Part shown: positions 61,226-64,000 of the stretch, piece after piece
Layout of the letters: each line of letters begins with the position of its first letter
How positions within the stretch are numbered: position 1 is the first letter of the stretch
DNA from: an uncultured Clostridia bacterium
GTDB lineage: Bacteria; Bacillota; Clostridia; TANB77; CAG-465
Direction of reading: 5' to 3'
Assembly: GCA_947628005.1 (NCBI GenBank)
Contig: CANQYI010000003.1
Span: 62,001 to 126,000, forward strand
DNA: 64,000 bases
The notes under the pieces: model-generated
What the model was told of the DNA's origin: nothing
Database searches by the model: none
Seen by the model: the letters and a program-made list of their open reading frames with translations, nothing else
Position numbers and translations under genes: made by a program

Positions 61226-61359
61226 TTTTACTCCTAATAAGCAATATAATTATACAATAATTTATAAAGAAATGCAACACTTTTTATGTAAATTTATAAT
61301 ATTTTATAATATTTAAAATATAAAATATTAAATTTTTAAAATTTACATATATAAAAAAA

Positions 61360-61386
61360 AATAGTAGGCTACTAACCTACTACTTA
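61360..61386 (-). terminator. Intrinsic terminator at nrdR 3' end
   Basis: TAGTAGGctactaaCCTACTA. Confidence 0.6.
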
Positions 61387-61829
61387 AAAAGTTTATTTAA
61401 TTCTTTTTTAAACTCATTTATATCTTTAAACTCTCGATATACTGATGCAAATCTAACATAAGCAATTTTATCAATATTTTTTAATTTTTCAATTACCATA
61501 TCTCCAAGTTCTGAAGATTTAACTTCCTTTTCCATAGAATTATTTAGCTCAGTTTCTATTTCATCTACTAATTTTTCAATAGTTTCAACAGATACAGGCC
61601 TCTTTTCACACGCTCTTAGCATACCATTGATTATTTTATTTCTATCAAATGGCTGTCTTAATCCATTCTTCTTTATTATTACAATTGGAGTATATTCTAT
61701 TTTTTCATATGTTGTAAACCTTGCTTTGCAATTTAAGCATTCTCTTCTTCTTCTTATTGTATTAGATTCATTAACATTTCTAGAATCTACTACTTTACTT
61801 TCTTCACATCCACATTTTAAGCAATACAA
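61380..61829 (-). CDS. nrdR: Transcriptional repressor NrdR
   Basis: [12 protein letters not shown]...[20 protein letters not shown]-cone. Confidence 0.96.
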
Positions 61830-61851: not shown

Positions 61852-62406
61852 CTAAAATTCGTGCAACTTTATATTTCCTGTCTCTAAGCTTTCTTTGCAT
61901 TCAATAGCCCTTTGATTTGTACTTCCTCTAAAAATAGTGTTTTCATTTTTTAAACTTTCTACAAATCTTCCATCCATAAGTATATCAGTATTATTTAAAA
62001 GATCCAAATAACCATTTTGTTCATTTGCATTACTTACTAAATTTTCAAATTTATAACCTGTATATACCATAAAATCATATGGCTTTTCAGATTTTAAATC
62101 ATCAATAAGTTTGTTTACCACTTTCGCCTGTTCAAATGGCTCCCCTCCACTTATTGTAACACCTCTAATAAGCGGATTTTTTTTGATATCATTTTCTAAA
62201 TCTTTTATACTTACAAGTTTACCGGCACTATAATCATGCGTTTCTGGATTATGACATCCTGGGCAATGATGTGGACATCCCTGTGTAAAAACTACATATC
62301 TTATACCAGGGCCATCAACTATTGATTCCCTTTGTACACCAGCAATTCTTAACATATCATCATTACACTTATAGCACTGTTTTTGATTTTCTTCCATATC
62401 ATTCAC
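61852..62406 (-). CDS. nrdG: Anaerobic RNR-activating radical SAM protein NrdG
   Basis: [36 protein letters not shown]. Confidence 0.95.
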
Positions 62407-62434: not shown

Positions 62435-62725
62435 TTAGTTTTTAGCACAAGAACATGGTTCCATTTGAAAATGTTTTACTCTATCTTTTACTTCTGCTTT
62501 TTTAGCATCATTAAATCTATCAACTGTTCCTACTAGATAACCAGTTATTCTTCTTATTCTTTCAAATGGCACTTTTTCAAAAGTATATTTCATATCTACT
62601 TCATCACCATCTATTGCCAAATCTAAAGTTGCAATTGTTTCCTCAGGGAACTTGTCCTGTAAATAATCTACATAAGCATTTATTTCCTCTTGTTTCATTT
62701 CTCCACCTGTTACATTTATTTTCAT
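62435..62725 (-). CDS. Small free-standing glycyl-radical-loop protein (NrdD C-terminal-like)
   Basis: Contains FERIRRITGYLVGTVDRFNDAKKAEVKDRVKHF, identical to the NrdD C-terminus; AGGAGG RBS before MKINVTGG. Confidence 0.85.
   Translation of the reverse strand: MKINVTGGEMKQEEINAYVDYLQDKFPEETIATLDLAIDGDEVDMKYTFEKVPFERIRRITGYLVGTVDRFNDAKKAEVKDRVKHFQMEPCSCAKN
62468..62566 (-). repeat. 99-bp direct repeat, copy 1 (glycyl-radical-loop coding)
   Basis: 97/99 nt identical to 62776-62874. Confidence 0.95.
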
Positions 62726-62757
62726 ATAAATCAACCTCCTAAAATTTTATATAAAAA

Positions 62758-63993
62758 TTATTCTTTTGTTGTATCAAAATGTTTTACTCTATCTTTTACT
62801 TCTGCCTTTTTAGCATCATTAAATCTATCAACTGTTCCTACTAGGTAACCAGTTATTCTTCTTATTCTTTCAAAATGAACATCATGATCTTCTTCTCTTC
62901 TTCCACATCTTGGACAAACTTCACCAATTATTCCTGTATAACCACAAACTGGATCACGGTCAACTGGATGGTTTATAGAGCCATATCCAATTCCAGATTC
63001 TTTCATACAACGAACAATTTGTTCAAAAGCTTCCAAATTCTTAGTTGGATCTCCATCAAGTTCTACGTAACTTATGTGTCCACCATTTGTTAGATTATGG
63101 AAAGGAGCTTCTATCTTTATCTTATCAAATGCATTTATTTTATAATATACTGGTACATGGAATGAATTTGTATAGTAATCTCTATCTGTTACTCCTTCAA
63201 TCTTACCATATTTTTTACGATCCATACGAACGAATCTACCTGATAGTCCTTCAGCAGGAGTTGCAATTAAAGTATAGTTAAATCCTGTCTTTTGAGCTTC
63301 AGCATCCATTCTATCTCTCATATGTTTTACAATTTTATAACCTAGTTCACGTGCTTCTTCACTTTCGCCGTGGTGTTTACCAACCAAAGCCTTAAGTGTT
63401 TCAGCAAGTCCAATAAATCCTAAAGTTAAGCTTCCATGTTTTAATACTTCACCAACTTCATCGTTAGGTTTTAATTTTTCTGAATCTAACCAAACACCTT
63501 GTTGCATTAGGAATGGATAATTCATTGCTCTCTTTTTAGCTTGAATTTTATATCTAGCCATTAATTGTTCAATTACTAAATCAATTTCTTCATCTAATAG
63601 TTTGAAGAATTTATCTACATCTCCTTTTGCTCTTATACCAAGTCTTGGTAAATTAACAGATGTAAAGCTTAAATTTCCTCTTCCACAAGTAACTTGTCTT
63701 GTTGGATCATATACATTAGACATTACTCTTGTACGACATCCCATGTATGCTACTTCTGTGTTATAATCACCTGGTTTATAAAATGGTAAATTAAATGGTG
63801 CATCAATAAATGAGAAGTTAGGGAACAATCTTTTAGCTGATACTTTACAAGCAAGTTTAAATATATCATAATTTGGTTCACCAGGATTATAGTTTATTCC
63901 ATCTTTTATTTTCAAAATCTGTATTGGGAATATTGGAGTTTCACCATTTCCAAGTCCAGCATCTGTTGCATTAAGTAAATTAATCATTACCAT
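62758..63993 (-). CDS. nrdD: Anaerobic ribonucleoside-triphosphate reductase NrdD, 5' part beyond the window
   Basis: DPVCGYTGIIGEVCPRCGRREE, RRITGYLVG near C-terminus. Confidence 0.95.
   Translation of the reverse strand: MVMINLLNATDAGLGNGETPIFPIQILKIKDGINYNPGEPNYDIFKLACKVSAKRLFPNFSFIDAPFNLPFYKPGDYNTEVAYMGCRTRVMSNVYDPTRQVTCGRGNLSFTSVNLPRLGIRAKGDVDKFFKLLDEEIDLVIEQLMARYKIQAKKRAMNYPFLMQQGVWLDSEKLKPNDEVGEVLKHGSLTLGFIGLAETLKALVGKHHGESEEARELGYKIVKHMRDRMDAEAQKTGFNYTLIATPAEGLSGRFVRMDRKKYGKIEGVTDRDYYTNSFHVPVYYKINAFDKIKIEAPFHNLTNGGHISYVELDGDPTKNLEAFEQIVRCMKESGIGYGSINHPVDRDPVCGYTGIIGEVCPRCGRREEDHDVHFERIRRITGYLVGTVDRFNDAKKAEVKDRVKHFDTTKE
62776..62874 (-). repeat. 99-bp direct repeat, copy 2 (nrdD 3' end)
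   Basis: 97/99 nt identical to 62468-62566; both differences synonymous. Confidence 0.95.
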
Positions 63994-64000
63994 TCTTGCT

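Follow-up and report, generated by a model that had tools for sequence, protein, structure and literature searches.

The small gene that lies next to nrdD, the gene for class III ribonucleotide reductase, in this uncultured Clostridia bacterium very probably encodes a trans-acting glycyl-radical part of that reductase, which would be a spare where NrdD has its own radical loop and an obligate part where NrdD is loop-less. We put the probability of this reading at roughly 85%. The window (the whole stretch of DNA analysed, 64,000 nucleotides) carries on its minus strand, in this order, nrdD, the small gene, nrdG, a probable nrdR and a terminator-like hairpin. The C-terminal part of nrdD (62758-64000; Pfam NRDD, E = 1.1e-145; NCBIfam PRK07111, E = 2e-212) runs past the window edge, and its open frame in the genome spans 786 aa. 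The small gene (62435-62725) encodes 96 aa from an ATG at 62725, with conservation, alignments and a structure model as further evidence for it, and is preceded by a Shine-Dalgarno sequence (AGGAGG, 62735-62740). It is followed by the gene for the radical-SAM activase NrdG (61852-62406; TIGR02491, E = 2.7e-43, above cut-off), by the probable nrdR regulator gene at the cluster end (61380-61829; an open frame assigned from sequence, without a profile search) and by the hairpin (61359-61385). An Rfam search gave no match near these genes, and promoter-like sites did not exceed their frequency in shuffled sequences.

A repeat search of the window identified one 99-nt family with two copies, one in the small gene (62468-62566) and one in nrdD (62776-62874), spaced 308 nt start to start and identical at 97 of 99 bases (98%). 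This is far beyond chance and confirmed that the repeat is real. The two mismatches, AAA/AAG (Lys) and TAT/TAC (Tyr), are both synonymous on the minus strand, as the sequence-only reading had claimed, and the open frame runs through the repeat in both genes. The repeat encodes the glycyl-radical loop (RRITGYLVG...RVKH) of class III ribonucleotide reductase. Both copies aligned with the C-terminal end of Pfam NRDD (PF13597 positions 533-562), the small ORF scoring over the cut-off (E = 8e-8). The loop of NrdD is FERIRRITGYLVGTVDRFNDAKKAEVKDRVKHF, with the predicted radical glycine codon at 62848-62850; that of the small protein has its predicted radical glycine, Gly62, encoded at 62540-62542. 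The flanking sequences had also been described as unrelated, with repeat edges at the loop, and this was borne out. Beyond the loop the two proteins have nothing in common, and the coincidence of repeat edges and loop therefore poses no separate puzzle.

The small protein consists of its own N-terminal domain of ~53 residues and the complete loop at its C-terminal end. Among Pfam and NCBIfam models only those for NrdD matched it; the GrcA and Gly_radical profiles of these collections did not, and the N-terminal domain had no match in Pfam. The RxxGY radical motif at the end of the NRDD profile, by which an NrdD glycyl-radical domain is recognised, is present, and the radical glycine and its neighbouring residues were invariant in 67 aligned sequences. 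The zinc ribbon stays on NrdD, and the small protein carries an unrelated N-domain instead. AlphaFold predicted this domain to fold as beta-alpha-beta-beta (pLDDT ~83) and the loop, modelled alone, to be disordered (pLDDT 53-58). Fold comparison gave no significant match of the N-domain to solved structures; a weak likeness to ribosome hibernation factors (E 0.1-0.5) was disregarded. Many small proteins end in cysteine-rich tails (CSC, SCC or CC; window 62438-62467, alignment A4), as do the loop-less NrdDs of families f56 and f60, and these tails might help to reduce the active site.

The same linked loop pair was seen in relatives of the same genus, where its near-identity could be examined further. 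Across 11 of these genomes with linked copies, the two loops of one genome differed on average at 4.7 of 99 nt, as against 12.3 of 99 nt between the NrdD loops of different genomes, a pairing never reached in 100,000 shuffles (permutation p about 1e-5). The higher within-genome identity expected under concerted evolution was thus observed for linked copies. Unlinked copies differed within the genome by 24.7 nt (seven genomes), similar to the between-genome level. An eighth unlinked genome, G434 (L106, L112), was an exception, its loops differing at only 3 of 99 nt, possibly through recent ectopic conversion or transfer. In two genomes of family f73 the copies are adjacent yet differ at 17 and 23 nt, and adjacency therefore does not always bring conversion. 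In this family (L111:1090-3821 and L110), the small protein adjoining nrdD has a longer, different N-terminus, and it and NrdD even have a C-terminal tail in common (HSLNSEMESL/HSLNSEMETL). Taken as a whole, these data support gene conversion between linked copies as the origin of the near-identical loops in the window. The sequence-only reading had proposed such an origin; its further suggestion, that identity answers a functional need, did not hold, since near-identity comes from linkage and unlinked copies diverge. Function needs only the conserved motif, not identical loop DNA.

Each of the 28 genomes examined in the genus (that of the window and 27 others) carries the small gene. A class search identified the combination of N-domain and loop in other families also, and a phylum search identified the small gene in 14 of 399 genomes, some of them outside the class. 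A scan of named genomes found at least 391 relatives, and the best 80, which were examined, include Ruminococcus bicirculans 80/3, Anaeromassilibacillus, Longibaculum muris and Sporobacter termitidis. No nrdD was recognised within several kilobases around the small gene in 71 of these best 80 loci, and ten of the 80 have a divergent Crp-like regulator gene upstream (family assigned from sequence). An alignment of diverse N-domains was too variable for collection scans. The small protein stands alone, and its gene is often unlinked to nrdD. One genome, G289, has three loop-only genes (L095, L096 and L097), one in the nrdD operon and two adjoining genes of mobile or phage-like look; the protein encoded in L095 is identical to that of the viral-collection locus L237.

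Concerted evolution of linked, near-identical copies would also be seen if the small gene were a functionless, pseudogene-like by-product, left when the nrdD end was duplicated and kept alike by gene conversion. Such a by-product is very improbable, given that the N-domain is under purifying selection (pairwise dN/dS 0-0.20), that every member of the genus has the gene, and that in many families it is found far from nrdD with its own Shine-Dalgarno sequence. A Shine-Dalgarno-like site lay upstream of the chosen start in 23 of 24 small genes examined.

The sequence-only reading missed a larger point, which is that the small protein can evidently replace the loop of NrdD, because many NrdDs have lost theirs. 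In 17 genomes of the genus, NrdD stops right after the zinc ribbon, and a separate gene encodes the loop. One such protein terminates in ...CPCCGRKEFEEVEKVSERILRIRR, without the GYL loop, and leftover ends in the genus include ERIKRITKN and SERILRIRR, each directly before the stop codon. NrdD likewise ends after the zinc ribbon in a neighbouring genus (G033), and several other families also combine a loop-less NrdD with a separately encoded loop. In family f56 the protein ends ...SERVARIKA (G276) or ...TERVERIKL (G417), while a relative, G391, retains the full loop; in family f6 it ends ...FERIPRL (G263). The small gene and nrdD are on different contigs in G276, G417 and G263. A second layout was observed in families f56 (genus g155), f60 and f53, where the loop-less nrdD is followed by a gene of 50-70 aa that encodes barely more than the loop, and mostly then by nrdG. 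In a 56-row tree of the NrdD core, built without the loop columns, loop presence switched at least 6 times on well-supported branches, and 10 times by parsimony.

Loss of the loop has left the catalytic core intact. Both active-site cysteines and the zinc-ribbon cysteines were present in 30 of 30 loop-less NrdDs, and about 230 of the 246 columns invariant in looped NrdDs were retained in all or all but one of them. The loop-less NrdDs are under purifying selection (pairwise dN/dS 0.03-0.08), as is the N-domain of the small protein. Loop-less nrdD shares an operon with nrdG in L004, L006, L008 and others, in L090-L094, L097 and L098, and in L397. Separately, NrdD-like proteins of ~665-760 aa with neither zinc ribbon nor radical loop are encoded in L133, L134, L150 and L152, adjoining a looped NrdD in the last two; these are possibly inactive or regulatory paralogues.

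Ten genomes encode a loop-less NrdD and a separate loop gene, and no other ribonucleotide reductase, those of class I and II included, was found in them. Four are 88-96% complete (G009, G015, G022 and G033) and six are 99-100% complete (G404, G304, G261, G245, G276 and G417). That the loop-less NrdD is the sole ribonucleotide reductase identified in these genomes supports, at the genomic level, replacement of the lost loop by the separate protein. An even sample of 122 class members, each at least 98% complete, was consistent with this: among the matches listed, only two loop-less NrdDs were more than fragments, and the genomes that encode them, G158 and G197, each carry a separate loop gene. 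Fourteen loop-less genomes of the genus encode a second, looped NrdD of another subtype. So does R. bicirculans 80/3, in whose closed genome the loop-less nrdD is followed by nrdG and the small gene lies >1 Mb away. The split enzyme may therefore not be essential in these organisms.

The closed genome shows that metagenome assembly did not create the split. Many of the genomes analysed were probably assembled from metagenomes, and one truncation, that of the G337 NrdD, was indeed only an apparent loss caused by a contig end, as would be expected if the repeat and the truncated NrdDs were artefacts of assembly or binning. It is highly unlikely that they are, since the pattern recurs, with conserved replacement tails, over many genomes and families, and R. 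bicirculans 80/3 contradicts an artefact in general.

The frequent position of the loop gene directly after nrdD could also mean that recoding or splicing joins the loop to NrdD, giving a single polypeptide in loop-less genomes. This we find hardly credible. Gaps between nrdD and the loop gene range from -11 to 543 nt, and the loop gene may be on another contig (G276, G417, G263) or, in R. bicirculans, more than a megabase off. Every copy examined starts on its own, nearly always behind a Shine-Dalgarno sequence, and these separate sites argue against translational fusion.

The small protein might instead be an inhibitor or decoy whose loop fills the NrdD barrel or the NrdG pocket and damps ribonucleotide reduction. 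It bears the loop on which NrdG acts, its gene accompanies those of both enzymes, and the NrdD of the window has a loop of its own, all of which would suit a decoy. Genomes with a loop-less NrdD as sole reductase would, however, be left without any radical source, and a decoy has no obvious need for an invariant radical glycine and invariant neighbours. An inhibitory role thus seems unlikely, and a radical-bearing part of the reductase remains the preferred reading.

Genes for such parts were also identified in a viral collection, for which the best 80 of 343 matches were inspected. About 100 loci have a stand-alone loop gene with no nrdD recognised within up to 4 kb on each side, and about 25 have a looped nrdD. 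Six contigs carry a loop-less nrdD together with a loop gene, some of them with nrdG as well. Some loci overlap, so these are counts of loci and not of independent viruses, and prophages may be among the contigs. In the isolated Eggerthella phage EL753P1 (L153:3900-4200), nrdD is loop-less and the loop sequence downstream of it is broken by an in-frame stop and a frame change, which may reflect a genuine break, recoding or an error in sequencing. ATTTGACC is repeated near the broken loop sequence. Two short fecal contigs labelled 'Bacteriophage sp.' (L155 and L156) were not counted as phage evidence, as they look bacterial, and L156 nearly matches the R. bicirculans gene.

As a mechanism for the trans-acting part, we propose that the N-domain of the small protein would dock on NrdD and that its loop would enter the NrdD barrel at the site of NrdD's own loop. 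NrdG would place the radical on Gly62, which would then oxidise the active-site cysteine of NrdD. These steps, from docking through activation by NrdG to transfer of the radical, are inferred by analogy with known systems, as is rescue after oxygen damage. The glycyl-radical domain of Prevotella copri NrdD is mobile (PMC11226230), which would make loop exchange easier. Since the NrdD of the window retains its loop, the small protein would be a spare there, for example after oxygen has cut NrdD at the radical glycine, as proposed by likeness to YfiD/GrcA and pyruvate formate-lyase. Relatives with a truncated, loop-less NrdD would depend on the small protein as an obligate radical subunit. It is probable, though less so than the trans-acting role itself, that the class III enzyme exists there as an obligate two-polypeptide enzyme with its sole glycyl radical on a separate protein of 50-100 aa, that a spare-part stage gave rise to this state several times, and that phages carry the part and so keep host dNTP synthesis going.

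The closest known systems are the pyruvate formate-lyase spare parts YfiD/GrcA of E. coli and Y06I of phage T4, likewise small proteins made of the partner's loop and an N-terminal part. There, too, a phage version exists, and there a lost loop is replaced, as is proposed for the small protein described here. YfiD binds oxygen-cleaved pyruvate formate-lyase with the aid of its N-terminal half, and takes up the radical well only when bound (PMC8683613). The present protein differs in that its partner is class III ribonucleotide reductase, with matches to NrdD profiles and none to GrcA or Gly_radical, and in that the partner's own loop has been permanently lost in several lineages. A folded N-domain is also predicted for it, in contrast to the N-terminal part of YfiD, which has been described as disordered (PMC8683613). 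P. copri NrdD (PDB 8p23) has the same radical loop (phmmer E = 5e-6) and the same kind of activase, but holds zinc ribbon and loop in one mobile C-terminal domain (PMC11226230), which here are on different polypeptides. The class II NrdJa/NrdJb of Pseudomonas aeruginosa is likewise a reductase in two polypeptides (PMC4520616, PMC9669993), but its split does not part a protein radical from the catalytic barrel, and class II uses adenosylcobalamin. Phage nrdD also occurs in more than one piece, through introns, homing endonucleases and the fragmented gene of phiAS4; introns or fragmentation of unexplained origin, rather than a stand-alone radical loop with a conserved N-terminus, have been given as the cause (PMC3653736).

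The spare-part concept is thus already known, and the obligate split is the more novel element. The 2021 study of YfiD had spare parts validated for pyruvate formate-lyase only and asked about other glycyl-radical enzymes (PMC8683613); in the open-access text searched, we found no account of one for NrdD. The small protein is a concrete and widespread spare-part candidate for an essential DNA-precursor enzyme of anaerobes, and by removing the loop from the enzyme in some lineages nature has provided a genetic test of its function. A cultured organism with a closed genome, R. bicirculans 80/3, is at hand for biochemistry, and there are viral-collection contigs bearing the part. The split may well provide a glycyl-radical enzyme naturally built from two components, one that would let radical formation, docking and catalysis be studied separately.
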